Positions 1 to 14,411 of a stretch of 53,022 nt of DNA are shown in pieces. A program made the position numbers and the translations under genes. Position 1 is the stretch's first letter. Each line of letters begins with the position of its first letter. The notes beneath the pieces are model-generated. The model saw only the letters and a program-made list of their open reading frames with translations. It was not told where the DNA came from and made no database searches. This DNA comes from Paludibacteraceae bacterium (GTDB lineage: Bacteria; Bacteroidota; Bacteroidia; Bacteroidales; Paludibacteraceae): NCBI GenBank assembly GCA_017630395.1, contig JAGBVI010000029.1, forward strand, positions 1-53,022. The letters are read 5' to 3'.

Positions 1-404
1 TGACCAACGATTTTGACATGTCAGCGGATACGATCGTAGCGATATACCGTCGCAGATGGCAGGTAGAGTCCCTTTTCAAACAAATTAAGCAGAACTTTCC
101 CCTGAGATATTTCTACGGGAAAAGTGCCAGTGCGATAAAGATTCAAATTTGGGTCACCCTCATAGCAAATTTACTGCTTTCGGTGCTGCAAAGCTCGTTG
201 CAGAGGTCTTGGAGTTTCTCCGGCCTTGCTACAATTGTTAGAATCACGCTAATGTATTACATCAATATGGAGAAGTTATTCAACAATCCGTACAAGGATT
301 TGGAAAAAATGCTCGCAGAATCCTTGGAATCGCCTCCTGAAAACGTTGAAAACCTCCAAGGGGGGCTTATCCATGCTCAGGATAACGTAAAATATTATTT
401 ATGA
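1..404 (+). CDS. IS4-family transposase, C-terminal part (cut by window edge)
   Basis: The reading frame is open from the first full codon of the window, so the start and most of the DDE catalytic domain lie outside. What is visible is the end of an IS4-type transposase. The segment YRRRWQVESLFKQIKQNF fits the conserved Y-R-E-K signature around the last catalytic glutamate of this family. It is followed by a hydrophobic helical tail and ends at a TGA. The enzyme would cut and paste its own insertion sequence. No stop or frameshift interrupts the visible part, but integrity cannot be judged without the missing 5' portion. Family assignment is fairly sure; the exact element is unknown. Confidence 0.8.
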   Translation, partial: TNDFDMSADTIVAIYRRRWQVESLFKQIKQNFPLRYFYGKSASAIKIQIWVTLIANLLLSVLQSSLQRSWSFSGLATIVRITLMYYINMEKLFNNPYKDLEKMLAESLESPPENVENLQGGLIHAQDNVKYYL

Positions 405-579
405 GAGTGTTGCTGAACTGATTTATTGTTTAGCGGATAGTAATACATATAAATAGCATCATTGATGCTTACTAGTCAACATTGACAACTAATTTCTGTA
501 ACCTTTATCATTCTCAATATTGTAAAATATAAATTGAACATCACACTACGGAATTATTTGCACGAGTCAACCATTATCA
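405..579. other. right flank of the IS4 element, non-coding
   Basis: This stretch lies between the transposase stop and the converging hypothetical gene. It holds TTTAGCGGATAG at 429-440, which recurs exactly at 3398-3409 just before the AbiE promoter, and a small palindrome AGCATCATTGATGCT at 455-469. The repeated 12-mer may mark the right end of this IS type, which is an inference. No gene is seen. Confidence 0.4.
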
Positions 580-1065
580 TCATCTCAAAGTATTTTGTAA
601 ACTCATTAACCCTGGCATAAAATGTTTAGCTTTGAAGCTAAGTTGCATAATATTATACGATATCTGACTAAAACTAATACGATTCTTTATTGCATGTTTA
701 ATTTCATCTTTTTTGTAATACTCATTTATGAAACTTGCAATATTTTGCATCATATGATCATCTAACATAATCAAAGAAGAGCTATCTACCTGCATACTTA
801 ATAATACTGCCTTAATGATATTTTCTATGGCCGCACAAGTGTCATCTGCTATCGCAAAAATAATTTTATTCCTTTCATTATCAATTATCTGAGCTTTCGC
901 TTTTGCCATTTGCAATTCTATCCCATTTGGGTCCTTTAACTGCAGAATAAACATATTAGTTTGGATAGATGATAACTCACTATCTAATCGCAACAACTCT
1001 AATTTCTTACTTCGCGCAGCTGACAACTGATGCATAGCGGTACTGCTATAAAATAATCTATTCAT
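580..1065 (-). CDS. hypothetical helical protein (161 aa)
   Basis: I do not recognise this protein. It looks soluble and mostly helical, with charged and amphipathic stretches in its first half (for example ARSKKLELLRLDSELSS) and no signal peptide or membrane segment. Its ATG lies three bases after the stop of the upstream membrane/coiled-coil gene, so the two are surely co-transcribed. The HNH fragment further upstream ends only 20 bases before that gene, so all three probably formed one operon before an insertion sequence broke its front. Function is unknown; a role as partner of the membrane protein is only suggested by position. Confidence 0.6.
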   Translation of the reverse strand: MNRLFYSSTAMHQLSAARSKKLELLRLDSELSSIQTNMFILQLKDPNGIELQMAKAKAQIIDNERNKIIFAIADDTCAAIENIIKAVLLSMQVDSSSLIMLDDHMMQNIASFINEYYKKDEIKHAIKNRISFSQISYNIMQLSFKAKHFMPGLMSLQNTLR

Positions 1066-1068
1066 AAT

Positions 1069-1950
1069 TTACGACTTACGTTCTTCCTTAAAAGCGTCTA
1101 TAAGGTCTTGATATTGTTTTACCAAGCTTACTAACTCTGAACTATATGAATCTTTTTCACTTTGTAACATAGATAGATTCTGTTGATAAATATCACTCAT
1201 ATATTTAACAGAATTATCTAGCTCTCGTTGTCCTTTATTTCTTATTTCTTCAATTTCCTTCCTAGATTGTTCTATCTTAAAGAGAGAAAAGAAACTAAAA
1301 ATGAGAAAAACAATAGTGAGAATAGCTGCCCAAATCGTGATATTTGTGTATTCATGTTCAATTTTTCCTAAATGCAACTCTAACATTTTTTCAGACATAA
1401 TAGCTGAGGTTAATTCTCTATACTGGAGGGCTAATGAGTCAGATGTAATCTTTGTAATATATTCATTTTGTCTTCTCATATACTCTACATCTGCATATAA
1501 TTTAATGAATATATCTTCTCCATTTAGTGAATCTTTTTGTCCCAATGCATTACTTAAACAAATAATTTGCCTGTCAACGCATGATCGCAAGTTATTTCTA
1601 TGCTCAGCTGATTGATTGATGTAAGATATAACACTACTTGTTGTTTGTTGCTGCATATTTTTATAACTCTCTACGATCTTTTGCTGGGAGTCTCTAAGGT
1701 TCTCGTTAGATAGCCACAGATAAGATCCAAATAAAGTTACAATCAAAACTAAGACACAGCAAAAACAGAACGAATGATGAGTGTTTAGAAACGCATCAAT
1801 CCTAGCCCATATACCTTGATTAGCTGTTTTTGGAACCTCTCTCTTTGGATTTCGTGAATCTTGACAATGTGTAAATTGCTGCTCTTTCGCAGATTTATGA
1901 TCATGTGCCTTTGTGTTCATTTTAGCATTTGCTTTGTTTCTTCGTCTCAT
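1069..1950 (-). CDS. membrane protein with two TM segments and coiled coil (293 aa)
   Basis: The protein begins with a polar, basic N-terminal region. It has a first hydrophobic segment at about residues 60-80 (CVLVLIVTLFGSYLW), then a long polar, probably extracytoplasmic region of about 120 residues. A second hydrophobic segment lies at about 203-225 (AILTIVFLIFSFFSLF). It ends in a charged coiled-coil-like tail rich in Glu, Lys and Gln. The topology (two membrane spans, periplasmic loop, cytoplasmic coil) resembles sensors or effectors, but no known domain is recognised. It is sandwiched between the HNH nuclease remnant and the 161-aa hypothetical gene with very short spacing. The family is unknown to me. 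Confidence 0.6.
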   Translation of the reverse strand: MRRRNKANAKMNTKAHDHKSAKEQQFTHCQDSRNPKREVPKTANQGIWARIDAFLNTHHSFCFCCVLVLIVTLFGSYLWLSNENLRDSQQKIVESYKNMQQQTTSSVISYINQSAEHRNNLRSCVDRQIICLSNALGQKDSLNGEDIFIKLYADVEYMRRQNEYITKITSDSLALQYRELTSAIMSEKMLELHLGKIEHEYTNITIWAAILTIVFLIFSFFSLFKIEQSRKEIEEIRNKGQRELDNSVKYMSDIYQQNLSMLQSEKDSYSSELVSLVKQYQDLIDAFKEERKS

Positions 1951-1970
1951 ATTATCTTATCATTATAACA

Positions 1971-2280
1971 TTATTCTTTTGCCATATGAGAATGCTTCTC
2001 ATAAAATGCTTCATTGTGCCATTTGAGATAATGCCGTCTTTCACAATCAATGTAATCATATGGCACAGTACAATCGTGCAAATATTGTAAAGACTTTTCA
2101 TCTTCTATATTTGTGTCGTAAATCACATTACCAGTCTTGTAGTCTATAGTGATGTAATTAGCTTGCTCAAAGAGTTTATCACAAATAGGACACATGAGAA
2201 GACCGTTATTAGGATTCATAGCATCATATGTATCCTCACATTTGGAATATGGCTTAATGTGGCTTGCAATCAACAAATTT
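1971..2280 (-). pseudogene. HNH endonuclease (HNH_2-like), C-terminal remnant cut by IS
   Basis: The frame reads LLIASHIKPY, then DAMNPNNGLLMCPICDKLFE. This matches the core of HNH_2-type nucleases (ASHIKPW, then NNGLLL...D.LFD), with the metal-binding His in SHIKP. The usual 150-200 residues before this motif are absent. The IS5-type element sits six bases upstream of the first LL codon, and in the flanking DNA beyond the IS the frame closes within a few codons (TAA), so the N-terminal half is deleted rather than just displaced. There is no good ATG; only TTG could start the remnant. I judge it a dead gene that once headed the operon continuing at 1950. Confidence 0.7.
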
Positions 2281-2283
2281 TTA

Positions 2284-3207
2284 GAAGCTGTTTAAATTTA
2301 ATTAAAAACTAATTTGAGAGGTTGAAAAAACTCTCAAAATTACACTTAAATATTGATTATCAGTTTGATAAGTGGATAATTTTTCGTAACTTTAAGGGCA
2401 TCAAACAATAAAGAAATGAATCATTATTCAACAAATCTCACCGATAATCAGTGGCAAGTTATAGAAAAATTTTTAGATGTGCAAGTGCGAAAGCGCAAAT
2501 ATTTTCTCAGAAGCATAGTAAACGCAATCAATTACCTCCTAAAAACGGGTTGTCAGTGGAGGATGCTTCCCAAGGATTTCCCTCCTTACAACCTCGTTTA
2601 CTACTATTTCTCGAAATGGAAGAACGAAGGCGTTTTTGATGAGCTGTTTTTCAAATTGCACATCTGGTTACGCATCATGTTAGGATGCGCAAAATGTCCT
2701 AGTTTAGGCCTGATCGATTCCAGAAGCGTTAAAACATCACACCACGTTGACAGATGCAGAGGCATTGACGGAAACAAGAAAATAAAAGGGCGAAAACAAC
2801 ATTTGGTCGTTGATACGTTAGGCATTCCGCTTGCTATTGTGGTCCACGAAGCCAATATTCAGACAGAGTCGGAGCATTGTAAGTATTTGAAAATATGAGG
2901 TTTAAATTTTCTCGACTTGCTAAAATCATCGCCGATGGCGGTTACAGAGGCAAACTTTTGTCCGACACGCTAAAAGCCACACAGGGGTGCGAGTTGGAGG
3001 TGGTGCTTCGTCCTGACTAGTGCCCCTCAAAATTCCAAGTGATGCCCAAACGGTGGATTGTAGAAAGGTCTTTCGCTTGGCAGGAAAACTTTAGAAGGTT
3101 GACTATCGACTATGAGTTTCATACGGAAACTGCAGTGGCCATGATTCAATTAGCCTTCTGTTTTTCTAATGCTTAACAAAATATTTTAGATAAATTTAAA
3201 CAGCTTC
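2284..3207 (+). mobile_element. IS5-family (TNA-target) insertion sequence, decayed
   Basis: The element is 924 bp long. It is bounded by inverted ends GAAGCTGTTTAAATTTA and TAAATTTAAACAGCTTC, with the duplicated target TTA at 2281-2283 and 3208-3210. A 3-bp TNA duplication and a DUF4096-plus-DDE transposase fit the IS1031/ISL2-like groups of the IS5 family. The intact target duplication shows that the copy arrived by transposition. The same ends recur in the small non-autonomous elements at 17742, 37813 and 52863. The transposase is broken, so this copy cannot move itself. Confidence 0.85.
2416..3176 (+). pseudogene. IS5-family transposase, broken by frameshift and stop
   Basis: The N-terminal part (2416-2898) reads as a DUF4096-type transposase: LTDNQWQVIEKFL, then GCQWRMLPKDFPPY, then the first catalytic Asp in GLIDSRSVKTS. 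Near 2880 the homologous frame shifts. It resumes around 2893 with KIIADGGYRGKL, carrying the second catalytic Asp, and continues to [16 protein letters not shown] with the catalytic Glu, ending at TAA 3174-3176. In this second frame a TAG at 3018-3020 replaces the expected Glu codon in RPD-x-CPSKF. Two independent lesions mean no active enzyme. It lies wholly inside the insertion sequence. Confidence 0.85.
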
Positions 3208-3414
3208 TTATTATCTTATAGAGTGCAAAGATAGTCAAATATTAAACAAATAGAAAATTTCCACGAGTGCGACGGAATCATTTTTCAGAACTACGGTGCA
3301 AAAAAACTTACCGCTTTTTACGTAAAAGATATAGAATCTCAAAGCATGATTGTATCTTTGTAATAAACAAAGTGGCAAACAATGGCAAAACATAATATTT
3401 AGCGGATAGCAACA

Positions 3415-3466
3415 AGTAAAAATGTCCCGTTTTTTGCGTAATAAACGGGACATTTTACTATCTTTG
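3415..3466 (+). promoter_or_regulatory. abiE promoter with palindromic operator
   Basis: A near-perfect inverted repeat has arms AGTAAAAATGTCCCGTTT (3415-3432) and AAACGGGACATTTTACT (3443-3459). It overlaps a Bacteroidota promoter: TTTG at 3433-3436 as the -33 box and TATCTTTG at 3459-3466 as the -7 box. The antitoxin ATG follows at 3488. AbiEi antitoxins are known to bind inverted repeats in their own promoter and repress it, so this is the likely operator. The RNA would start close to 3473, leaving a leader of about 15 bases. Confidence 0.65.
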
Positions 3467-3487
3467 CATCGTGATAATGATACAATT

Positions 3488-4231
3488 ATGAATATAGCAA
3501 AAGAAATAAATAGAAGAATCTCAGGATTTCCAGAAGATTATGTTTTTACAGCATCTGACTTTAAGATTGAAACACGGAATCAATATGCTGTTGCAAAGGC
3601 GTTAAATCGTATGGTTAAGTCTGGAAAAATCTCTAAATTGGCAAAAGGAAGATTCTATAAACCCAGAAAGACCCAATTTGGAGATTTAAAACCTTCCGCT
3701 TATCAAATTGCTAAAGATTATATTGAACGTGATGGTAAACTCATAGGCTATATAACGGGGTATTCTGCATATAATGCGTTAGGGCTTACCTCACAAATAT
3801 CTTCTTATATTCAAATTGGCACAAACAAAAGTCGCCGTTCTATCAAACGTGAGAAATATACAATATCTTTTATCATGCAACAGAATCCGATAACCAAAAA
3901 GAATATTGAAATCTTACGAATTTTAGATGCCATAAGGTTTATCCGAGAAATCCCTTCAACAACTCCCAATGATGCTTGTATCAGATTAAAAGAGATTATT
4001 CGGGATTTGAATGATGAGCAAAAAGGACTACTTGTTAAATGTGCCATGAAATATACAAACTATGTTCGTGCATTGTGTGGCGCAGTACTAGAGGATATTG
4101 GTTGCAACGACAACTTTTTAGAGCCTATACGCAAAAGCTTAAATGGGGTGACAGATTACAAGTTACCAATATCCGAATCAGTTTTACCAACTAAAACAAA
4201 TTGGAGAATATATGAACCTTCACGAAAATAA
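3488..4231 (+). CDS. abiEi: AbiEi-type antitoxin (DUF6088-like), type IV toxin-antitoxin
   Basis: The 247-residue protein begins with a winged-helix region (about residues 8-65: ASDF, AVAKALNRMVKSGKI, KGRFYKP) followed by the AbiEi C-terminal domain. An earlier in-frame ATG at 3422 would lie upstream of the -7 promoter box, so ATG 3488 is chosen. In this family the antitoxin counters the toxin without stable binding and represses its own operon through inverted repeats; a palindrome does overlap this promoter. The toxin gene starts inside its last codons, a 20-base overlap typical of this operon. Family assignment is made with good confidence from the domain look and the neighbour. Confidence 0.82.
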   Translation: MNIAKEINRRISGFPEDYVFTASDFKIETRNQYAVAKALNRMVKSGKISKLAKGRFYKPRKTQFGDLKPSAYQIAKDYIERDGKLIGYITGYSAYNALGLTSQISSYIQIGTNKSRRSIKREKYTISFIMQQNPITKKNIEILRILDAIRFIREIPSTTPNDACIRLKEIIRDLNDEQKGLLVKCAMKYTNYVRALCGAVLEDIGCNDNFLEPIRKSLNGVTDYKLPISESVLPTKTNWRIYEPSRK

Positions 4232-5174
4232 GAAACTGTTTACGGATGCTGTTCTCGCAGCATCTGAATACTTGGATATACGTCCGGTATATATCGAGAA
4301 AGATTATTGGATAACTCGTTCCCTTAAATTGATGAAGCAGAATCACAATGCCGACAAGGCTATTTTTAAGGGTGGCACATCTTTATCCAAGGCACATAAA
4401 ATAGGGAACCGCTTTTCAGAAGACATTGACATTGCTATATCTGATGCGGACACTTTAACGGGCAACCAACTGAAAATGTTAATTAAAAAGATAGCAAAAG
4501 AAATGACATCTGGATTGGAGGAAGTGGAAATGCCCGGAGTTACAAGTAAAGGCTCACGTTATTATAAGGCAATGTATTCTTATCCAAATGTACTTGGAAA
4601 AGCCGTTAAAGAAACGGTCAATATCGGACAATTGCTCGTGGAGATAAATTCGTTTGCCAATCCCTATCCACACGTATCAAAAAGCATAGATTGTTTTATC
4701 TCTCAGTTTTTTCAACAGACAGGTAATGAAGCATTGGTCGATGAATACGGTCTACAAACCTTCGCTTTGAATGTGTTGGACAAAAGACAAACATTAACAG
4801 AGAAACTGGTGTCTCTTATTCGTTTTTCTTTGTCGGAAAACCATATATACGACGTGGCATCCAAGATACGACATTTCTACGATTTGCATTATCTATTGCA
4901 AGACGAAGAGTGTGCCGAGTATTTACAATCTGAGCGATTTAGGACAGATTTCAATACGTTATTGGCTCATGATAGAGCGACATTTGACAAGCCAGAAGGC
5001 TGGAATAGCATGAAAATAGAGCAATCACCTCTATTATCTGATTTTTCAGTTATGTGGTCTAAATTAAAAGAAACATATTTGAAGGAATTACCTGCCATTG
5101 CTTTTTCGGAAATCCCTAAAGAAGATTTGGTGGCGAAAAGCTTTGAAGTGATAATTAAAAGCATAAGGTTCTAA
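4212..5174 (+). CDS. abiEii: AbiEii/AbiGii-type nucleotidyltransferase toxin
   Basis: This 320-residue protein carries the signature of the AbiEii nucleotidyltransferase fold. It has EKDYWITR at residues 29-36, GGTSLSK at 54-60 as the nucleotide-binding loop, and the two metal-binding aspartates in EDIDIAI at 70-76. In characterised members the enzyme transfers nucleotides to RNA such as tRNA acceptor ends and stops growth, giving abortive protection against phage. The length is normal and all core motifs are present, so the toxin looks functional. It overlaps the antitoxin gene by 20 bases and is translated from the same message. The exact target of this member is not known. Confidence 0.88.
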   Translation: MNLHENKKLFTDAVLAASEYLDIRPVYIEKDYWITRSLKLMKQNHNADKAIFKGGTSLSKAHKIGNRFSEDIDIAISDADTLTGNQLKMLIKKIAKEMTSGLEEVEMPGVTSKGSRYYKAMYSYPNVLGKAVKETVNIGQLLVEINSFANPYPHVSKSIDCFISQFFQQTGNEALVDEYGLQTFALNVLDKRQTLTEKLVSLIRFSLSENHIYDVASKIRHFYDLHYLLQDEECAEYLQSERFRTDFNTLLAHDRATFDKPEGWNSMKIEQSPLLSDFSVMWSKLKETYLKELPAIAFSEIPKEDLVAKSFEVIIKSIRF

Positions 5175-5181
5175 AGTTTTG

Positions 5182-5189
5182 TATCTTTG
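5182..5189 (+). promoter_or_regulatory. TAnnTTTG -7 box upstream of the DUF1848 gene
   Basis: TATCTTTG lies 17 bases before the ATG at 5206. No clear TTTG -33 box stands at the usual distance. The surrounding 17-mer TGTATCTTTGTAATAAA (5180-5196) also occurs at 3351-3367, on the other side of the AbiE operon. Confidence 0.45.
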
Positions 5190-5205
5190 TAATAAATAAT
5201 TGACA

Positions 5206-6258
5206 ATGAGTAACACTAAAATAACCATAAAAACTCTGTCCGGCGAGACCGTTGAGGCTATGGCTCCCGTGATTATCTCGGCGAGCCGCTCGACGGATAT
5301 TCCGGCATTCTTTGCCAAGTGGTTTGTCAACCGCCTGAAGGCCGGGTATTGCGTTTGGAACAACCCGTTCAACCAGAAGCCTTCGTATGTTTCGTTCGCA
5401 CAGTGCAAAGTGGTGGTTTTCTGGACGAAGAACCCCAAACCGCTTATTCCGCTGCTGCACGAACTGGACGAGCGAGGTATCCGCTACTATTTTCAGTTCA
5501 CTCTGAACGATTACGAAAAAGAGGGATTCGAACCCAACGTGCCAAGTGTGGCGCAACGCATCGAAACATTCAAAGAACTTTCTAAAAAAATAGGCAAAGA
5601 GCGTGTCATCTGGCGTTTCGACCCATTGGTTCTGACGGAAAATCTTACGCCACGTCAACTGCTCACAAAGATTTATCACATCGGAAACGAACTGAAAGGT
5701 TATACAAACAAGCTGGTTTTCAGTTTTATAGACGTCAAGGCTTATCGTAAAGTGCAAAACAATCTGGTCAAGGAGAGTCGTTTATTTAATAAAGAAAATG
5801 TCGCAGCAGCTGAACCGGAAGGAGAGAAGAGGCAAGAACTGATAGATGGATTGGTCAAACTCCGTGACCATTGGAAAGAAGAGGGATGGAATCTACAACT
5901 TGCCACTTGTGCAGAAGATATAGATTTGGAACAATACGGAATCGAACACAACAGATGTATTGACGGCGAATTAATGGAACGTATTTTTGCAGATGACAAA
6001 GAGTTTGTTTACTATCTGAAAACCGGTAAGTTAGCTGAAAAAGATTTGTTTGGCAATCTTCCTGAAATACCCATGAAAGGGAGAGACCTAAAGGATAAAG
6101 GGCAACGTAAAATTTGCGGTTGTATGATAAGCAAAGACATCGGCATGTACAATACCTGCAGTCACTTTTGCGTCTATTGCTACGCCAACACAAGCAAAGA
6201 ACTTGTGATGAAGAACAGGGCAAAGCATTCTGATGATAGCGAAAGTATAATTGGGTAG
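5206..6258 (+). CDS. DUF1848 family protein, probable iron-sulfur/radical-SAM-like enzyme
   Basis: The 350-residue product shows the DUF1848 pattern. It opens with IISASRSTDIPAFFAKWF, continues with VVFWTKNPKP and VIWRFDPLVLTE, and ends in a cysteine cluster (CGCMISKDIG, then NTCSHFCVYCYAN). The C-x3-C-x2-C spacing resembles a radical-SAM cluster loop placed at the C terminus, so metal binding is likely, though its reaction is unknown. ATG 5206 is preferred to the in-frame TTG six bases earlier. G+C is clearly higher in the first 600 bases than in neighbouring genes, which hints at transfer. It has its own promoter and no evident partner; the AbiE pair lies upstream in the same direction. Confidence 0.85.
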   Translation: MSNTKITIKTLSGETVEAMAPVIISASRSTDIPAFFAKWFVNRLKAGYCVWNNPFNQKPSYVSFAQCKVVVFWTKNPKPLIPLLHELDERGIRYYFQFTLNDYEKEGFEPNVPSVAQRIETFKELSKKIGKERVIWRFDPLVLTENLTPRQLLTKIYHIGNELKGYTNKLVFSFIDVKAYRKVQNNLVKESRLFNKENVAAAEPEGEKRQELIDGLVKLRDHWKEEGWNLQLATCAEDIDLEQYGIEHNRCIDGELMERIFADDKEFVYYLKTGKLAEKDLFGNLPEIPMKGRDLKDKGQRKICGCMISKDIGMYNTCSHFCVYCYANTSKELVMKNRAKHSDDSESIIG

Positions 6259-6487
6259 CATTAAACAAGACTGTCATGAACTCATCCAACAAAAAAAAGT
6301 TCTTCTTCCAAATTCACTTTTATCATTGGGAAAACAATACATCTGCCGGTAAGGTACACAAATACAGTATAAAAAAGGGAAATACCCAAAATAACCAAAG
6401 TAAATATAATCATTTAACTCACATATACTATAATGCAAAAGGATAGTTTATTTTGAAACAAATTGTTCGATAATATTACTATAAAAG

Positions 6488-6609
6488 GTTATAAATACCA
6501 ATTATAACCTAAAACAGTTATAATTACACATTATAACCAAATTAAGTTATAAAGAAACAATATAACTAAAAATGGTTATAATAATAGATTATAACCAAAA
6601 ACAGTTGAA
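6488..6609. repeat. left iteron array: 21-bp palindromes every 29 bp
   Basis: Half-sites GTTATA start at 6488, 6517, 6546 and 6575, with a decayed one at 6604. Opposing half-sites TTATAACC start at 6502, 6531, 6560 (ATATAACT) and 6589. Each pair forms GTTATAA-7 bases-TTATAAC, and the period is exactly 29 bp. The array lies in the 466-bp gap between the DUF1848 stop and the DUF3307 stop, that is, downstream of the satD-DUF3307 operon. The rest of the gap (6259-6487, 6610-6724) is AT-rich and shows no gene. An array of the same design lies upstream of the operon at 8285-8407. Confidence 0.85.
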
Positions 6610-6724
6610 AAATTGGAAGAAATTGTTATTTACCTTGAATAAAGAGCAAAATCAATATAAGTTTGCATAAAACATCTTATACGCAACAATCAAAATAGCA
6701 TATACTTATGAAGCTTAAAATTGA

Positions 6725-7420
6725 TTATAAAGCGCAAACCATCAGACCGCAAAGTAAGGCAATTCCAAAACTTAAAAATGTACCGGCAAGAACATATTCC
6801 GTTTTTGCAGTATCAGTATCTTTAAATCTTAAGATTGACTTAGCAGCAATAACAAACCCGATAGCTTCAAACTGACCAATAATTACAAAAATCATGGTAA
6901 GCAATCGTTCCAAATTACCAATTAATCCACCTGCGTTCTTTATATTACTACATGATTTTGACTCTCCAACATCATATTTTTTGAGTAACAATTTAATGAA
7001 AATATTGGTAGGTTTTATACAGATAAGAGTTGCTATTAGTAAAATAGGGATAGAAAAATTGTCACATTGGTCTATTAGATGTATAGGTAATTCAATTTGA
7101 GTCTCATATACAATAGAGATGAGAAGTAATATACCTAAATGAAGTAGTTGATCTGCTAAAAAAACACCTAAACTATTGCTAAAATATAGTTTTATAGAAT
7201 CAATTATAAGATGAGTTAGAATTATTAAAATAGCATAAATTCCAAAATCAATAGATGGTATCAATAACCAGGCTATTAATCCCATAATAATAGAATGCAC
7301 ATAGAGAAACCAACATTTTAATTTTTTTGTCTCTTTTTGTTTGCAAAAGTAGTCGGTTTGTAAGTAGAAATCTCCAATAATATGTGTTAAAAGCAAACTA
7401 GACAGTAAATCGTTATTCAT
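6725..7420 (-). CDS. DUF3307 multi-pass membrane protein
   Basis: The 231-residue protein opens with LLLTHIIGDFYLQTDYFC, the hallmark start of DUF3307 proteins, and contains about six to seven hydrophobic helices along its length (for example IIMGLIAWLLIPSIDFGIYA and a final LSFGIALLCGLMVCAL). The histidine and aspartate residues of the first helix (H13, D16) and the later THLIIDS are typical of the family and could bind a ligand or metal. It starts four bases after the stop of the satD-like gene, so the two form one operon. The biochemical role is unknown. Pairing with a cyclase-like regulator suggests a membrane effector or transporter that it controls, which is an inference. Confidence 0.8.
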   Translation of the reverse strand: MNNDLLSSLLLTHIIGDFYLQTDYFCKQKETKKLKCWFLYVHSIIMGLIAWLLIPSIDFGIYAILIILTHLIIDSIKLYFSNSLGVFLADQLLHLGILLLISIVYETQIELPIHLIDQCDNFSIPILLIATLICIKPTNIFIKLLLKKYDVGESKSCSNIKNAGGLIGNLERLLTMIFVIIGQFEAIGFVIAAKSILRFKDTDTAKTEYVLAGTFLSFGIALLCGLMVCAL

Positions 7421-7424
7421 TAAA

Positions 7425-8072
7425 TCAAAATTTTATCCTTTCAAAATAGTTTAAAGCCTCTTCAATACAATACCACTGCGCTGAAGTAGTATGTTTGTTG
7501 ACCCCAGCTTGTGAAATTTTCATCTCCTTGGCTATTTCACACTCTTTTTTAGACAATAGTTTGTGAAATATAACTTCACTTTGCCTTTTTGTAGCATTGT
7601 TCATTATAGCATCGGTCAAAATAGCAATTGTATGCAAAGATGAACGATAAAAGGTGTTATTGGTATTTATTTTTAATGTTCCCTTTTTGGGCGTTCTCAT
7701 TTTCTCGACAGTCCGACCAGATAAGTAAATGGCTTCACCATCCATTATATTAGCCACCTTGTCTATAATCCTCATTTCGCCAATCCCAATTGCAATCCGA
7801 ATACCATAGGTTTGAAATTTTTTGTTTTCTAATGATTTTTTCAATTGGGTAGATTTTATAAATGATTTAATTATTAATGCAATACGAAATGAATCTACAG
7901 CATTAGGAATTATACACTCAATATAATCTCCTTTTATTTGTCTCCCCCAAAACCCTGGATATTTCGTCTCTAATAATTGAAACAAATCATCTATTTTTCG
8001 TTTCAATTCAATTGTTCCCTCCTTCGAAATTGAGGTTGATGATATAATATCAGCTGAAATCGTTGCTTGCAT
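7425..8072 (-). CDS. SatD-like protein: class III cyclase-like domain plus HTH
   Basis: The first two thirds resemble the class III nucleotidyl cyclase core. ISADIISST (D8) matches the first metal-binding motif, KGDYIECII (D49) the second, IRIAIGIGE (92-99) the G-I-x-x-G strand, and DGEAIYLSGRTVEKM (R120) the transition-state arginine helix. The usual catalytic Asn position holds Tyr116, so activity is uncertain. Residues about 160-200 (KRQSEVIFHKLLSKKECEIA, then MKISQAGVNKH) form a sigma-region-4-like helix-turn-helix. ATG 8072 is preferred to GTG 8093, which overlaps the -7 promoter box. It is followed at once by the DUF3307 gene. The SatD family label is from memory of similar pairs; the function is not established. 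Confidence 0.72.
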   Translation of the reverse strand: MQATISADIISSTSISKEGTIELKRKIDDLFQLLETKYPGFWGRQIKGDYIECIIPNAVDSFRIALIIKSFIKSTQLKKSLENKKFQTYGIRIAIGIGEMRIIDKVANIMDGEAIYLSGRTVEKMRTPKKGTLKINTNNTFYRSSLHTIAILTDAIMNNATKRQSEVIFHKLLSKKECEIAKEMKISQAGVNKHTTSAQWYCIEEALNYFERIKF

Positions 8073-8092
8073 TGTTTTTATTCTTTCAACCA

Positions 8093-8100
8093 CAAATATA
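8093..8100 (-). promoter_or_regulatory. TAnnTTTG -7 box of the satD-DUF3307 operon
   Basis: On the minus strand TATATTTG lies 20 bases upstream of ATG 8072, which predicts a leader of only about 15 bases. The surrounding 16 bases TTCAACCACAAATATA (plus strand, 8085-8100) recur exactly at 46185-46200 in front of the DUF4143 ATPase gene, at the same distance from its start codon. Confidence 0.5.
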
Positions 8101-8155
8101 GTATATTTATTCTTTCTTTTTAAGTTACTGTTGAATTTTTTCTTAGAAGTTGTTT

Positions 8156-8215
8156 AAATTTTATATCGAGCATATTTGAGAAAGCTTTTATAAATTTATT
8201 TGATTATCTAAAATC
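8156..8215. mobile_element. family 1 MITE, solitary end
   Basis: The sequence starts GAAGTTGTTTAAATTTTAT after a TTA target-like triplet. It continues TCGAGCATATTTGAGA, as in the full copy at 17742, and then diverges. No matching second end is found nearby, so this is a truncated or decayed copy. It lies between the satD promoter and the right iteron array. Confidence 0.6.
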
Positions 8216-8284
8216 TTCTCTCTCTATCGGAAATATACTAAAAATAATAGCTCTTTTAGTTGGTCAAAATAATTACCTTAAATA

Positions 8285-8407
8285 TGTATAGTTGCAATTT
8301 ATAACCATATATAGTTATAATTACTCATTATAACCGAAATAGGTTATATTTACACTTTATAACCTCATAGAGTTATAATTACTATTTATAACCCTTTTCA
8401 GTTAATT
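8285..8407. repeat. right iteron array: 21-bp palindromes every 29 bp
   Basis: Half-sites TTATAACC start at 8299, 8328, 8357 and 8386. Half-sites GTTATA start at 8314, 8343, 8372 and (as GTTAAT) 8401. Spacing within a pair (14 bases between half-site starts) and between pairs (29 bp) is identical to the array at 6488-6609. It occupies the divergent region between the satD-like gene and the histidine phosphatase gene, ending about 100 bases before the phosphatase ATG. The rest of the 430-bp gap holds the satD promoter and a MITE end. Confidence 0.85.
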
Positions 8408-8503
8408 AAAGTTTCGTAATATTTAGTTCTCTAAAAATTGTCTCTTGCATATCTTGAGAATTTTTACGAATATTGTAGTCCAAAATTTAATTGAGAGATT
8501 GAT

Positions 8504-9793
8504 ATGAAATTATTTTTAAAAGGGGGATTATTTTGTATTTGTTCCTTAATGGTTAGTTCCATGGGAGCGCAAACAACCAAAGAGGAAATGATGTTACACA
8601 TCGACCAAACAGCAAGTAATTATCTTGCTTATTCCACCAATTTTAAACCGCAATCAAAAGTACCTAAGGGGTATCAGGCTTTTTACGTTAGTCACTACGG
8701 CAGACATGGGTCTCGCTACCATTATTCGGCTACAGATTTTAAAAATATGTTGGAGATATTGCAAAAAGCAGATTCGGCCGAAGCATTGACAGAGCTGGGT
8801 GTCAGTGTTAAAAATCGCTTTGCTAAAATCTATGAAGATGGCAAAATGAAAGCTGGAGATCTTACACAGAAAGGGGTAGAGCAACATAAAGGGATAGCCC
8901 GTCGAATGGTAAAGAATTGTCCTAAGGTATTTAAAGGGGAGGCAAAAATTAGTGCAAAATCTTCCACATCCGTTCGCTGTGTACTGAGCATGGATGCTTT
9001 TTGTCAGGAGTTGAAAACGATTAATCCTAAACTTCAAATCACCAACGAAGCAAGCAAACGTCTTATGTCATACATTTGCTATGAAGAGAAAGAGGATCAA
9101 AACAAAAGAATGAATGATACCCTATGGACTAAACCTTTTGGAGAATTGCATTATCGGTTGATTCATCCTTCAAGAATGATGAGCGTTTTATTTAGAGACA
9201 AAGAGTATATGGATAAAAATATAGACTCTGTTGCCTTTATGCGCAAATTATATGATATTCACTCCAGTATGCAAGGAATGGATAGTTTAAATATTGATTT
9301 TAGTGATGTTTGGACAAAAGAGGAATTATACAACAATTGGCGAGTGCAAAATGCTTGGTGGTATGCCAATAGTGGTCCATGTCCTCTCACTTTGTCAAAA
9401 AATCCATTGTTAGCTCGAAACCTACTAAAGAATATTTTGGAGGAAGCCCAAAAGGCTGTCGAAGGGAAAGGAGATAATGCCTCACTTCGATTTGGACACG
9501 ATATGGGTATTCTTCCTTTGGCATCATTGATGGGAATGCAAGGTTGTGATGTTAAAACAACAGACCTTGAAAATCTACATACCGTATGGACCGATTTTAG
9601 AATCATTCCAATGGGTGCTAATATTCAATTGATTTTCTATCGTCACAAAAAGAATAAAAATGTTATTGTAAAGGCTTTATTAAACGAAAATGAGGTGACT
9701 TTACCTTTGAAAAGTGATACTGCACCTTACTATAATTGGGAAGATTTTTACCGATATTATTCAAATTTACTAAAAGCGACATCTATAAAGTAG
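8504..9793 (+). CDS. secreted histidine phosphatase (MINPP/phytase-like)
   Basis: The 429-residue protein begins with a signal peptide ending near SSMGAQ (residues 1-22), so it acts in the periplasm or on the surface. YVSHYGRHGSRYH near residue 65 carries the RHG motif with the nucleophilic histidine of branch 2 histidine phosphatases. LRFGHDMGILPLASL near 327 supplies the HD proton-donor motif. Bacteroidota homologues act as multiple inositol-polyphosphate phosphatases, and by resemblance this one probably removes phosphate from phytate-like substrates. It stands alone, with the 29-bp iteron array some 100 bases upstream, which could influence it. The substrate is inferred, not shown. Confidence 0.85.
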   Translation: MKLFLKGGLFCICSLMVSSMGAQTTKEEMMLHIDQTASNYLAYSTNFKPQSKVPKGYQAFYVSHYGRHGSRYHYSATDFKNMLEILQKADSAEALTELGVSVKNRFAKIYEDGKMKAGDLTQKGVEQHKGIARRMVKNCPKVFKGEAKISAKSSTSVRCVLSMDAFCQELKTINPKLQITNEASKRLMSYICYEEKEDQNKRMNDTLWTKPFGELHYRLIHPSRMMSVLFRDKEYMDKNIDSVAFMRKLYDIHSSMQGMDSLNIDFSDVWTKEELYNNWRVQNAWWYANSGPCPLTLSKNPLLARNLLKNILEEAQKAVEGKGDNASLRFGHDMGILPLASLMGMQGCDVKTTDLENLHTVWTDFRIIPMGANIQLIFYRHKKNKNVIVKALLNENEVTLPLKSDTAPYYNWEDFYRYYSNLLKATSIK

Positions 9794-9845
9794 GTAGGTT
9801 CTATAAATTCATTTAGTAGAATTTTTGAATTTATTTCGAGTATTT
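9792..9845. mobile_element. family 2 repeat, end fragment
   Basis: TTCTATAAATTCATTTAGTA (from 9799) followed by GAATTTTTGAATTTATTTCG matches, as reverse complement, the right end of the family 2 element at 23277-23472. Only about 50 bases remain, between the phosphatase stop and the gldF promoter region. Confidence 0.55.
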
Positions 9846-9891
9846 ACTACCTTTGAGGTCAAATTGTAATCAATCTTTACAAGTGTGAGTT

Positions 9892-10620
9892 ATGTTTACA
9901 TTGTTGAAAAAAGAGTTTAATAATTTTTTTGCTTCCCCCATGGGCTACATCGTGGTGGGTGTGTTTTTAGTGGTGACTGCTCTCTTTTTATGGGTTTTCC
10001 CGGGAGAATACAATATTTTGGATTCCGGCTATGCAAATATAGACGGACTTTTCTATTTTGCACCTTGGCTATATCTCTTCTTAGTGCCGGCTGTTACCAT
10101 GAGACTATTTGCAGAAGAGAAGAAAACAGGCACCATTGAGTTACTAATGACTCGCCCAATATCTTCTTGGAGTATCGTATTTTCTAAATATTTGGCAGGG
10201 GTATTATTAGTACTCTGTTCACTTCTCCCTACATTAATCTATTTTGCTTCTGTTTGGTGCTTGGGAGATCCAATGGGAAATATTGATACTGGAGGAACTT
10301 GGGGGTCATATATCGGTTTGTTTTTCTTGGCTATAATCTATGTGGCAATCGGCGTTTTTGCCTCTTCTTTGACAGATAATCAAATTATCTCTTTTATTGT
10401 TGCTGCTCTTTTGTGTTTCTTTTTTTATGCAGGTTTTGATATTATTTCCGGCATGGCTAATAGCGGAAACACAGAGACTTTTATCTCTTCTTTGGGAATC
10501 AATGCTCATTATGAATCAATGAGTAGAGGGGTTATCGATAGTAGAGATATTGTCTACTACTTAGTGGTGGTTGCTATCTTTATTTTCTTAACTCAAACTG
10601 TTATTGACAGAAAAAAATAA
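9892..10620 (+). CDS. gldF: GldF-type ABC transporter permease
   Basis: The 242-residue protein is an ABC-2 type permease with six hydrophobic helices. The start FTLLKKEFNNFFASPMGYIV and the segment RLFAEEKKTGTIELLMTRPI are characteristic of GldF, the membrane part of the gliding-motility GldFG transporter. Members work with the ATPase GldA and the auxiliary protein GldG in the inner membrane. Here gldG does not follow; the next gene, one base downstream, is a phosphopantetheinyl transferase. Either gldG lies elsewhere or this is a GldF-like transporter with another job. The length is normal and no damage is visible. Confidence 0.85.
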   Translation: MFTLLKKEFNNFFASPMGYIVVGVFLVVTALFLWVFPGEYNILDSGYANIDGLFYFAPWLYLFLVPAVTMRLFAEEKKTGTIELLMTRPISSWSIVFSKYLAGVLLVLCSLLPTLIYFASVWCLGDPMGNIDTGGTWGSYIGLFFLAIIYVAIGVFASSLTDNQIISFIVAALLCFFFYAGFDIISGMANSGNTETFISSLGINAHYESMSRGVIDSRDIVYYLVVVAIFIFLTQTVIDRKK

Positions 10621-10621
10621 G

Positions 10622-11248
10622 ATGCTATTTTATAACAAAAAGTTGATTAATGGTTATTCACTCGCTATTTGGAAAATTGAAGAGTCGGTGGAGCAACTTT
10701 TGTCTCATTTTTATACTTATAAAGAGGCAATGACAACTCAAATTACCTCTATGAATAGCGAAAAACGACAAAAAGAATTCCTTGCAGTCAGAGTTCTGAT
10801 TTCTAAACTATTAGGAGTTGAGAATGGTGTTATTTATAATAGTGACGGCAGACCTTCGCTATTAAATCGAGATGAGAAAATAAGTATCAGTCATACGCAA
10901 GGTTATGCATCCGTTATTATTCATCCCAATCGGACTGTTGGGGTAGATATAGAGCAATGTAGAGAGAAGATTTTCAGAATTAAACACAAGTTTTTGTCGG
11001 CTTTTGAATTGGCTCATGTAGATCTTCAAAATGAACTCAAATACCTAACTTTATTGTGGTCTGCCAAAGAAACCCTATATAAAATCTCAGATAATCATTT
11101 AGTTGAATTTGATGAAGATATGGAGGTAGCACCTTTAACACTCTCTTCTTGCGGTCAACTATACATCACCGATAAAAAAGTAGAAAAAAGATATGAACTT
11201 TCGTATCAATTTTTTGATGATTTTGTTATTGTTTATGGAGCTGAGTGA
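10622..11248 (+). CDS. 4'-phosphopantetheinyl transferase superfamily protein
   Basis: The 208-residue protein has the two blocks that bind coenzyme A and magnesium in this superfamily: VGVDIEQ (about residues 105-111) and LWSAKETLYK (about 143-152). It would move the phosphopantetheine arm from coenzyme A onto carrier proteins such as ACP. ATG 10622 is chosen over an in-frame TTG 18 bases earlier because it starts right after the gldF stop, with one base between. It is 12 bases ahead of the ATP-grasp-like gene, so gldF and the next three genes form one transcription unit. The Sfp-like shape is more likely than AcpS from the length. The target carrier protein is unknown. Confidence 0.85.
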   Translation: MLFYNKKLINGYSLAIWKIEESVEQLLSHFYTYKEAMTTQITSMNSEKRQKEFLAVRVLISKLLGVENGVIYNSDGRPSLLNRDEKISISHTQGYASVIIHPNRTVGVDIEQCREKIFRIKHKFLSAFELAHVDLQNELKYLTLLWSAKETLYKISDNHLVEFDEDMEVAPLTLSSCGQLYITDKKVEKRYELSYQFFDDFVIVYGAE

Positions 11249-11260
11249 AAATTTTAGTAT

Positions 11261-12454
11261 ATGAGACATTGCTACCTATTTAATCCTGAAAATGATTTGG
11301 CCTTAGCGAGCGATTCTTCGCATTACCATACTCCAAAAAAAATATTGGAATTTTCTTCCAATCTTTCTTTATTACCCGTTTGGTACGCTCCTAATAATAG
11401 TTTAATACTAACTCGAACTGAGGTTGACTCCGAATGGTATCAAGAACTCTTCTCGCAATTAGGAATTCAGCAACAATGGCTCACCATAGAACGCTATTCC
11501 TATCAACCGGAAGATTATCTTTCTCCATGGGGCTGGAATTCCGCTCTTCTTACGTGGTGGAAAAAGTTGAATCCGACTTTTTCGATTTGTTTGGAACAAA
11601 TAAGAAATTGGTCGTCAAGAGCAGTTACAATTAATTTGCTTTCCTATTTGAAACAACAAAATCTTCTTGAACCATCTCTTTCTATTCCACAAAAACTTAA
11701 CAGCTATTCTGATATACTGAGATTTCAAACAGAACATCCTTTGTTTATATTGAAATCACCTTGGTCAGGAAGTGGGAAAGGACTCTTTTGGAGTAATGGT
11801 TTATGGAGAGATAAATTAAGAGAATGGAGTAACAATATCTTAACTACGCAAGGCTTTGTAATAGGAGAGTTGGTGTATGAGAAAAAGCATGATTTCGCCA
11901 TGGAGTTCTTTTGCCAAGATGGCAATGTATCATTTATTGGATACTCTCATTTTTTGACAGATAAATTCGGGCATTACAAATACAATGTCATGGCAGCAGA
12001 TAAGGAGATAGAATCTTTCTTAATACAAAAACTTTACCATCCGGAAAGATTGTTGCGAACAAAAGAGAAAATTATTTTGTTTTTGAAAGAAAATTTAGCA
12101 CAATTTTACAATGGGTATTTAGGAATTGATATGATGTTATATGGCTATAAATCAACAGATTGTTATCTTCATCCTTGCGTTGAAATCAATTTAAGAATGA
12201 ATATGGGAATTGTTTCTCGAATGATTCATAATCGTTATTTTTCGGAAGAAACAAAAGGGATATACAAAGTGAAAACATTTTCTTCTCCTAAAGAATTATT
12301 GGATTATGACCTCTTTATGCGGAAGAAATTTCCTTTAATGATAGAGTCAAAGAAAATTATGAATGGCTATTTGGCTCTAACACAGATAACACCCCATTCT
12401 CGCTCTCTTGCTTATTTACAAAGTGGAATAGAAGAGGAGGTCTGCCATGTTTGA
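11261..12454 (+). CDS. conserved Bacteroidota protein, ATP-grasp-like
   Basis: The 397-residue protein starts MRHCYLFNPENDLALAS. A flexible glycine loop, LKSPWSGSGKGLFW (around residue 166), follows, and near residue 305 comes HPCVEINLRMNMG. A Gly-rich loop followed much later by an E-x-N-x-R block is the layout of ATP-grasp ligases, where these residues hold ATP and magnesium. I do not know a characterised homologue, and the amino-terminal substrate domain is unfamiliar. Its stop overlaps the start of the DUF2156-GNAT gene by eight bases, showing translational coupling. The two may act on the same cell-envelope or metabolite substrate, but this is inference. Confidence 0.6.
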   Translation: MRHCYLFNPENDLALASDSSHYHTPKKILEFSSNLSLLPVWYAPNNSLILTRTEVDSEWYQELFSQLGIQQQWLTIERYSYQPEDYLSPWGWNSALLTWWKKLNPTFSICLEQIRNWSSRAVTINLLSYLKQQNLLEPSLSIPQKLNSYSDILRFQTEHPLFILKSPWSGSGKGLFWSNGLWRDKLREWSNNILTTQGFVIGELVYEKKHDFAMEFFCQDGNVSFIGYSHFLTDKFGHYKYNVMAADKEIESFLIQKLYHPERLLRTKEKIILFLKENLAQFYNGYLGIDMMLYGYKSTDCYLHPCVEINLRMNMGIVSRMIHNRYFSEETKGIYKVKTFSSPKELLDYDLFMRKKFPLMIESKKIMNGYLALTQITPHSRSLAYLQSGIEEEVCHV

Positions 12455-14384
12455 AAAAATTCATTTTCGAGAAGTTTCTATTGAAGATAGGTGCTTGTGG
12501 AATAGTTATTTGTCTTTGTCTGGTATTCGCTTTTGCGATTTTTCTTTTCTCAATATTTGTGCTTGGAAATTTTATTATCAGACCGAGTTAGCAGAATGGA
12601 AAGGTTACTTGTTAATCAGACACTATTTTGATGATAATTTTCACTACTTTTTTCCGATAGGAGATGGGAATATCGCTGAGGTTTTAAATGATTTGAAAAC
12701 TTTTGCCTTTGAAAATCATCACTCATTTTTAATGGATTGCTTGACAATTAATCAATTAGAAGAAATAAAAACAATTTCCATACATCCTTTTTCGTTTAGT
12801 TTAGATAGAAATTTCAGTGATTACCTTTATCTACGAGAAGATTGGATCGCTCTGAAAGGAAAACGTTTACAATCAAAACGAAACCATTTGAAACGATTCT
12901 TGCAAAACTACGAGTATGAATACAAACCCTATACAGATGCTTACTTAAACGATTGTATTTCACTGACCAAACAATGGATGAAGGAAAATCCTGACCTGAA
13001 TTGGGACTCCATGAACAATGAACTACAAGTAATACAATTTGCCTTAAACAATCTAGAGCAATTAGGTGGCTGTGGAGGAACCTTATGGGTAGATGGTCAA
13101 TTAGTGGCATTTTCTTTGGGTTCTCCTATCAATGAAGACACTTTTGTTGTACATATCGAAAAGGCAAACACCTCATACGAAGGGATTTATGTTGCGATGG
13201 GAAACATATTTGCCCAAAATCTTCCCGACAACTATACCTTCTTAAATCGTGAAGATGACATGGGATTGAAAGGATTACGTCAATCTAAATTATCCTATTC
13301 TCCTCATAAATTGTTGGCAAAATTTTCCATCGATTTTTCTGCTGAAAATACAATAGAAGAATCAAAATTAAAGTTGCTGTGGGAAACTGTCTTTCATGAC
13401 AATCCAACCTACATAAATGATTTTTTCTCCGATTTAAGAGGAGAATATAATTCTGTTTTTAAGCAAGATAAGGAAAAAAATTTACTCTCTTCCATGTATC
13501 TGGTAAAGTACGAATTTCAGCTACTTAAACAATCATTGCCACTATATTATTTCTACGCAATAGCTACGGATAAATCTGTTAGAAATCAAGGACTTGCTAC
13601 AGGTATGATTTACGAGTCTATATGGCGAGGATTTATCGAAAAAATTGGAATGGCCTTCTTGGTTCCAGCCAATCATGAATTGATCGATTTTTACTCAAAT
13701 TTCGGCTTCGCACCATGGATGTATAGTAATGTCACAAATTATTCTTGCGAAAAATTAGAAAGGGGAGAGTCACGCATCCGATTGTCTGAGTGTCTGCTCA
13801 ATAAAAAAATACAAATTTCCTTGATAGAAGTAATAAAAAATTCAGAACTTGCTATCTTACCATCAGAAACGTTACTCGATTTTTGGATCCAAGATACAAG
13901 AAACGATGGAAAAGTTTTTTATTCCATCATTCAGAATGAAAAGATGGTTGCTTGGATAATTGTTGAAAATTGCGATTACGACAAACTCTTGAAAATTTCA
14001 ATCTTAGGTTCCATCACACCAATACCGCTCAACGACTTACTGCTCTCTCTTAAAGAATTGTTTCCAAAGGTTTCATCTATAGAAATCCAGCAACACTCAT
14101 TGATAGGAGAGACACCTCATTCTCTTTGTAGAATTATCCATCTACCAACATTCTTAGACCAATATGTAAAAATTTATCATGGAGACCCCTTTGCATTTTA
14201 TTACCATGATGAATTACTTCCACCCAATAGCGGATATTATAAAATATCAGTATCCGGATGGCAAAAAGTAGAAACACTTGGGAACGAGTGCAAAGTTGTT
14301 AATTCTTTAACAATAATCCCCTTCTTATTTCGAGAAAAAATAGGGTATATAGGCAATATTACATATTGTTCTATACTGCAATAA
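12447..14384 (+). CDS. fusion of DUF2156 (LPG-synthase-like) and GNAT domains
   Basis: Residues about 1-290 fit DUF2156, the catalytic fold of aminoacyl-phosphatidylglycerol synthases: KRNHLKRFL, GGTLWVDGQLVAFSLGS, then FLNREDDMGLKGLRQSKLSY. Residues about 300-430 fit a GNAT acetyltransferase: YYFYAIATDKSVRNQGLATG is the acetyl-CoA loop, followed by FYSNFGF. The last 200 residues are unassigned. The protein has 645 residues and no membrane helices, unlike full MprF. DUF2156 and GNAT enzymes both transfer acyl groups, so it may modify a lipid or amine, but the substrate is unknown. It overlaps the ATP-grasp-like gene by eight bases and ends the operon, facing murF-alr. Confidence 0.75.
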   Translation: MFEKIHFREVSIEDRCLWNSYLSLSGIRFCDFSFLNICAWKFYYQTELAEWKGYLLIRHYFDDNFHYFFPIGDGNIAEVLNDLKTFAFENHHSFLMDCLTINQLEEIKTISIHPFSFSLDRNFSDYLYLREDWIALKGKRLQSKRNHLKRFLQNYEYEYKPYTDAYLNDCISLTKQWMKENPDLNWDSMNNELQVIQFALNNLEQLGGCGGTLWVDGQLVAFSLGSPINEDTFVVHIEKANTSYEGIYVAMGNIFAQNLPDNYTFLNREDDMGLKGLRQSKLSYSPHKLLAKFSIDFSAENTIEESKLKLLWETVFHDNPTYINDFFSDLRGEYNSVFKQDKEKNLLSSMYLVKYEFQLLKQSLPLYYFYAIATDKSVRNQGLATGMIYESIWRGFIEKIGMAFLVPANHELIDFYSNFGFAPWMYSNVTNYSCEKLERGESRIRLSECLLNKKIQISLIEVIKNSELAILPSETLLDFWIQDTRNDGKVFYSIIQNEKMVAWIIVENCDYDKLLKISILGSITPIPLNDLLLSLKELFPKVSSIEIQQHSLIGETPHSLCRIIHLPTFLDQYVKIYHGDPFAFYYHDELLPPNSGYYKISVSGWQKVETLGNECKVVNSLTIIPFLFREKIGYIGNITYCSILQ

Positions 14385-14411
14385 ATCACTATATTTGACT
14401 ATCTACAAAGA

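Follow-up and report, generated by a model that had tools for sequence, protein, structure and literature searches.

Phased 29-bp arrays as the predicted operator of a SatD-like regulator encoded with a DUF3307 membrane protein in Bacteroidota

Two arrays of short inverted repeats with a 29-bp period, located on either side of a satD-like/DUF3307 operon in a genome of the Paludibacteraceae, most probably represent the operator of the adjacent SatD-like protein. We assign a probability of roughly 0.8 to this reading, in which the protein would bind the arrays and thereby control, probably repress, its own operon; we infer the binding from the covariation of protein and DNA described below. All coordinates refer to the window, i.e. 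the whole stretch of 53,022 nucleotides that was analysed (contig JAGBVI010000029.1). The satD-like gene (7425..8072, minus strand) is followed on the same strand, after a gap of 4 nt, by the gene for a DUF3307 membrane protein (6725..7420, minus strand). Array B (8270..8407) is located upstream of the satD-like gene, and both its place and its period are kept in relatives. Array A (6473..6610) lies downstream of the DUF3307 gene between convergent gene ends.

The initial annotation had described each array as four 21-bp palindromes of the type GTTATAA-N7-TTATAAC at a spacing of 29 bp, both arrays sharing the same register. Such palindromes begin at 6488, 6517, 6546 (one mismatch) and 6575 in array A, and at 8314, 8343 (one mismatch) and 8372 in array B. 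Their position on either side of the operon was confirmed, and the step within both arrays is exactly 29 bp, but the remaining unit of array B, at 8285, is degenerate with three mismatches. The common register is likewise inexact, as the distance between 6488 and 8285 is 1797 bp instead of the 1798 bp of 62 full periods. Within the window, periodic pairs scoring at least 24 were exclusive to period 29 (periods 26-32 tried) and to these two arrays. A search of the own genome with up to one mismatch returned nine palindrome places, seven in the two arrays and two isolated one-mismatch singles, versus three places for the reversed control pattern. This search revealed no further arrays and no genome-wide regulon; instead of arrays spread through the genome away from the module, which the annotation had named as evidence against its proposal, it gave just those two singles. 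A CRISPR array, which the annotation had also dismissed, was rejected because the 21-bp palindromes are separated by gaps of 8 bp, whereas CRISPR repeats have unique spacers near 30 bp in length; among the open reading frames of positions 1-16000, no cas gene stood out by eye.

The arrays are better read as alternating half-sites, TTATAAC-N8-GTTATAA, with the N7 palindrome being half a period off. Array A then comprises ten half-sites, or five N8 dyads: eight half-sites, which include a strong core at 6488-6595, match at 6-7 of 7 letters, and the outermost one on either side matches at 5 of 7. In array B seven half-sites match 6-7 of 7 letters (strong core 8299-8392) and those at 8270, 8285 and 8401 are weak, with 5, 4 and 4 matches, respectively; by the 5-of-7 half-site rule that we used for relatives, array B counts only seven half-sites. 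Because of these weak outer half-sites, the number of five dyads is firm for array A and requires decayed arms for array B. In a comparison with the closest relative (locus L006 of genome G006), 6 of 112 arm positions differ as against 32 of 120 spacer positions (Fisher p 1e-5). This difference indicates that the arms are under constraint.

To trace the arrays in other genomes, we retained the best 80 of 159 relatives (L055-L134, across Bacteroidota, a phylum with many gut and marine members) and searched their upstream regions for two 7-7-7 palindromes with similar arms without fixing any letters. The best period was 29 bp in 76 of the 80 regions and another one in four. The mean score amounted to 23.8 at period 29 compared with 15.3-16.3 at the other periods between 22 and 41, and in 73 loci none of 60 dinucleotide shuffles matched the period-29 score, which at least one shuffle equalled in the other seven. 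A few low-scoring period-29 matches, e.g. in L121, L125 and L126, may be due to chance. An upstream array thus accompanies homologous satD-DUF3307 loci widely, as the annotation would have it, whereas bracketing by two arrays is not a rule. A scan of up to 4 kb on each side of the 80 loci (less at contig ends) revealed a second array in L055 only (3 overlapping pairs versus a mean of 0.33 at control periods). This locus belongs to G006, the nearest relative, whose satD-like protein is 96% identical and which retains both arrays. An upstream array is therefore what such loci usually have, and the second, bracketing one was added locally in the lineage of the window and G006.

The downstream array of the window is not unique, since a distant genome (G764) carries seven exact units and a degenerate one downstream of its DUF3307 gene, before the next gene, and none was called upstream. 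In view of this case and of four more distant loci (L024, L031, L185 and L188) that have the array between the satD and DUF3307 genes, the position of the array is not fixed. These four loci belong to a held-out set of 53 distant loci, in 25 of which no array was called. We also searched 198 genomes of the order blindly at the DNA level, using 1.5 units of the window motif with up to two mismatches, and obtained matches in 12 genomes including the own one. The matches in G108, G124, G180 and G231 adjoin satD-DUF3307 genes, and the SatD-like proteins all have a lysine at residue 193, as in the window; the remaining seven genomes gave a single two-mismatch match each. G108 additionally contains, on another contig than its satD locus and near the end of that contig (L040, G108:C18), a second piece of a GTTATAA array next to genes that look phage-like by eye. 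A putative viral contig from IMG/VR (L054) carries a satD-like gene, by eye with K193, together with a 29-bp array of GGTATAT-type arms.

For counting dyads we considered 81 loci (the 80 and the window), 75 of which scored 20 or more and six of which were too low. As many as 58 of the 75 scored arrays open with a right arm and close with a left arm, for which reason the N7 unit was dropped in favour of N8, and 54 of the 75 comprise exactly six half-sites, i.e. three N8 dyads. The typical operator would therefore consist of three TTATAAG-N8-CTTATAA dyads. The likeness of gaps within a locus differs only slightly, 0.56 for N8 versus 0.52 for N7, with N8 being higher in 38 loci and lower in 26. 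Longer arrays occur as well, with 14-17 half-sites in four Paludibacteraceae loci; L093, L096 and L098 have 16-17. The array upstream of the satD-like gene in L179 has 26 half-sites with CTTATAA arms, which form 13 dyads spaced by 29 bp.

The proposed reader of the arrays, the product of the satD-like gene (215 aa from the ATG at 8072), has a predicted nucleotide-cyclase-fold domain and, probably, a C-terminal LuxR-type helix-turn-helix (HTH). In an AF2 model with a pLDDT of 95, structure matches assign the N-terminal domain to the nucleotide cyclase/GGDEF fold, with Foldseek E values of only about 1e-3 versus class III cyclases, GGDEF domains, the Cas10 palm and GTP cyclohydrolase III. The combination of this fold with two aspartates that characterizes class III cyclases is present as the predicted fold and the residues D8 and D49, neither of which varies among the 80 rows. 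We take these, equated by eye with the cyclase motifs, to be the metal-binding aspartates. The position that, by the same kind of comparison, presumably corresponds to the catalytic asparagine of cyclases is occupied by Tyr116.

Profile searches point to the SatD family (PF16264, "secretion and acid tolerance D" of streptococci). The window protein itself lies below detection, as no match to PF16264 was found up to E=10 or in a search of the own genome, and L024, an array-bearing homologue, is a member by score (47.4 bits, cut-off 29, profile positions 1-197 of 211). The window protein thus appears to be a divergent SatD relative and not a Pfam member by score. In architecture it resembles L024, being about 210 residues long and composed of an N-terminal domain followed by a C-terminal HTH (based on the fold and on HTH matches in homologues). 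Among six distant relatives one exceeded the cut-off and L018 and L035 matched below it, and 7 of the 80 closer rows matched at E<=1 (best 1.8e-5). A GerE-type HTH was matched by 62 of 80 members at E<=1, with a best value of 5.8e-7; the window protein gave E 0.09 and 12.9 bits versus a cut-off of 23.5. Regulators of the LuxR/GerE family bind dyad operators. The SatD-like proteins would differ from these by their N-terminus, according to the model a cyclase fold and neither a receiver nor an autoinducer domain, and by an operator in which several dyads follow one another at a rigid 29-bp step.

If the HTH reads the arms, its residues should vary with the arm letters. From 65 loci we selected 37 representatives below 80% identity and found that residue 190, in the recognition helix, stands out in its association with the first three letters of the arm (z 7.8), followed at a distance by residue 2, which is not in the HTH (z 3.9), and residue 193 (z 3.7). 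Recognition-helix columns rank above the rest (p 0.014), whereas the comparison of the whole HTH with the N-terminal columns is not significant (p 0.14). In the training loci K/R193 goes with G1 (5/5), Q193 with C1 (47/50) and N/T193 with T1 (6/6), while A/G190 goes with T2 (31/35) and V/T190 with C2 (23/24); the rules fail for letter 1 in 3 of 61 cases and for letter 2 in 5 of 59. The frozen rule does not cover S190, on which the training loci were divided (C in five cases, T in one). By eye, arm position 3 (G or T) seemed to track residue 187.

The frozen rules were applied to the held-out set, where arrays were called in 28 of the 53 loci; in eight of these, residue 193 is none of those that the rule covers, and eight have S190. 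Letter 1 was predicted correctly in 18 of 20 cases (permutation p <5e-5) and letter 2 in 19 of 20 (p about 2e-4); without the four loci that had been found by their DNA pattern the figures are 14/16 and 15/16. The misses fall on L183, L190 and L180, and S190 was paired with C2 in six of its eight held-out loci. Shared descent was taken into account with a tree of 93 rows, which was built without the HTH from the training, held-out and pattern-found loci together. Tree-independent pairs agree for G1 with K/R193 (7/7, p 0.016), for C2 with V/T/S190 (on average 7.9 agreeing and none opposing of 10, median p 0.008) and for T2 with A/G190 (5.5 to 0 of 8, median p 0.03), while those for T1 with N/T193 (2.5 to 0 of 5) and C1 with Q193 (4.7 to 0.1 of 8) are not significant. 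Two natural cases illustrate the pattern: the metagenome-assembled genome RUI231 encodes two paralogues with the differing words CTTATAA (L088) and CCGATAA (L099), and the 56% identical proteins of L185 and L188 combine Q193 with CTTGTAT and K193 with GTTGTAT, respectively. It therefore seems that two HTH residues, 193 and 190, largely predict arm letters 1 and 2, and the suggestion of the initial annotation that the HTH of the SatD-like protein perhaps reads the arrays is supported at the level of sequence.

The layout may extend beyond the phylum, as one case suggests. On a conjugative plasmid of Vibrio lentus three TTAGCC-N6-GGCTAA dyads, spaced by exactly 28 bp, precede satD-DUF3307, and the HTH of this SatD has T190 and K193. 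Read as N8 dyads, a phase that was chosen after the fact, the arms begin with GC, which is what the code predicts. No array was seen at a homologue on a Segatella plasmid (L220).

The direction of regulation was assessed from putative promoters, where we take TAnnTTTG to be the -7 box of Bacteroidota. In the window TATATTTG (8093..8100, minus strand) matches this consensus 20 nt before the ATG at 8072, and TATATTTC (8230..8237, minus strand), which 32 bp separate from array B on its gene side, is one letter off; G006 has an exact TATATTTG at 31 bp from its array. Because it would overlap a -7-like box, a longer GTG start of the satD-like gene at 8093 is unlikely. In 49 of 65 loci a TAnnTTTG box overlaps the array or comes after it, as opposed to 2.7 expected from mononucleotide shuffles, and the distances from array end to box group at about 7, 24-28, 37-39 and 96-166 bp. 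The box comes 7 bp after the last arm in L094, L095, L097, L102, L104, L106 and L107, and overlaps the last arm in L113, L131, L103 and L128. These overlapping boxes may not be real promoters because of their odd distances to the start codon (4-5 nt in L113 and L131, 95 and 116 nt in L103 and L128).

The 7-bp and overlapping boxes would favour repression, while the other distances fit either direction; provided that regulation as such is right, we lean towards repression. Simple blocking is unlikely in the window itself, because the roughly 170 bp between array B and the exact box are too far. This distance, together with the 96-166 bp in L088, L093, L096 and L098 and the frequent spacings of 24-28 or 37-39 bp, would suit a SatD-like protein that binds upstream of the promoter as an activator, or that switches to activation in one of its ligand states. 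We regard activation as possible, if clearly less probable, since a dimer bound 7 bp from a box, or on top of one in the four overlapping loci with their doubtful start-codon distances, should block the polymerase. Considerably less likely is a cis-acting assembly site comparable to a centromere or filament, on which dimers polymerise to tether the locus with the membrane protein and promoter control is secondary. The long arrays, with up to the 26 half-sites of L179, and their varying place, before, between or after the two genes, would suit such a site, but the prevalence of exactly three dyads and the promoter-like boxes at or after the arrays would not.

In principle the arrays might be read by a different DNA-binding protein, as the binding role of the SatD-like protein is deduced from sequence. 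Yet the letters of the arms vary together with residues 190 and 193 of the SatD-like neighbour, and the two paralogues of RUI231 own different words, which makes this reading very improbable. We attach next to no probability to the alternative offered by the annotation, that a recombinase recognises the arrays as the two ends of a mobile unit. The bracketing seen in the window and in G006 would agree with this idea, but in the up to 4 kb scanned on each side matching ends are absent from the homologues except L055 (1/80), no recombinase is found among the open reading frames between the arrays, and the arm letters track the satD HTH.

Returning to the operator of a SatD-like autoregulator, we propose the following mechanism. 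The C-terminal HTH would read each 7-bp arm, residue 193 picking letter 1 and residue 190 letter 2, and one dimer would occupy each dyad of right arm, N8 and left arm. Three or more dimers at 29-bp distance would then occupy the DNA at the satD-DUF3307 promoter or upstream of it, most likely repressing the operon. Since 29 bp correspond to about 2.8 helical turns, cooperative binding along the same face of the DNA is doubtful, and the dimers would probably wind round it. The cyclase-fold domain probably senses or makes a nucleotide that alters DNA binding, and DUF3307 would serve as the membrane output of the switch. The additional downstream array in this lineage may contribute looping or raise the local protein concentration.

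The putative output protein is a frequent partner. In 72 of the 80 loci the satD-like gene is followed, within 400 nt, by the start of an open reading frame of 180-330 residues, and all 50 partner proteins scanned (that of the window and 49 of those 72) match DUF3307 (PF11750), a family of distant YdjM-like membrane proteins; one of them also matches YdjM (2e-4). Hydrophobic stretches and conserved His/Asp residues suggest a membrane protein that perhaps binds metal, and a fold comparison with the PDB gave nothing useful (best Foldseek E 0.9). The module is patchily distributed, occurring in 14 of 61 relatives and, by profile, in 81 of 395 genomes of the phylum, and also on plasmids and one viral contig. 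The L024 protein matches two plasmid records and has no match in a phage collection.

In the neighbourhood of the operon, positions 3422-5174 encode an AbiEi-like (DUF6088) protein and an AbiEii nucleotidyltransferase, a pair of the abortive-infection/toxin-antitoxin type, and positions 5200-6258 a DUF1848 protein that matches RTasDUF1848 of PADLOC and is convergent with DUF3307. In G006 a two-gene insert, by eye an ATPase-like gene and a second reading frame, follows the DUF1848 gene (L167 1813-3622, G006:C73), and 3'-end fragments of DUF1848 precede array A (G006:C73:5256-5388); a further such fragment lies apart from the gene on contig C47 of G002. The 3' end of DUF1848 may thus be an insertion spot. 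Except in G006, the other genus members that carry both the DUF1848 and the histidine-phosphatase genes have them on different contigs.

Among the literature matches listed, in which subscription journals are thinly covered, no SatD operator and no DUF3307 function is described: the matched passages contain one phage annotation line for DUF3307 and, for SatD, an acid-tolerance annotation, a row of a transcriptome table and essentiality in Streptococcus pyogenes (PMC11323703). A wider proposal, which is tentative and on balance improbable, would see satD-DUF3307 as a widely distributed switch that responds to stress or phage, in which a nucleotide-sensing repressor silences a harmful DUF3307 until a nucleotide signal releases it. 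The gene pair and its operator would fit a toxin-antitoxin operon, with the toxicity of DUF3307 being hypothetical. A harmful partner would explain the patchy spread over 14/61 relatives, 81/395 genomes, plasmids and a viral contig. It would also explain why satD is accessory in S. pyogenes (178/249 genomes) and yet scores as essential where present (PMC11323703), a DUF3307 partner there being hypothetical.

Members of a family of undescribed function can thereby be viewed as candidate regulators, for which an operator and a two-residue code are predicted and the membrane partner is defined. With this code, the operators of relatives could be predicted from protein sequence alone, natural pairs such as L185/L188 lend themselves to mutational comparison, and the differing operator words may provide a set for insulated genetic switches. 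Moreover, there is now a concrete reason to ask what DUF3307 does when it is released.
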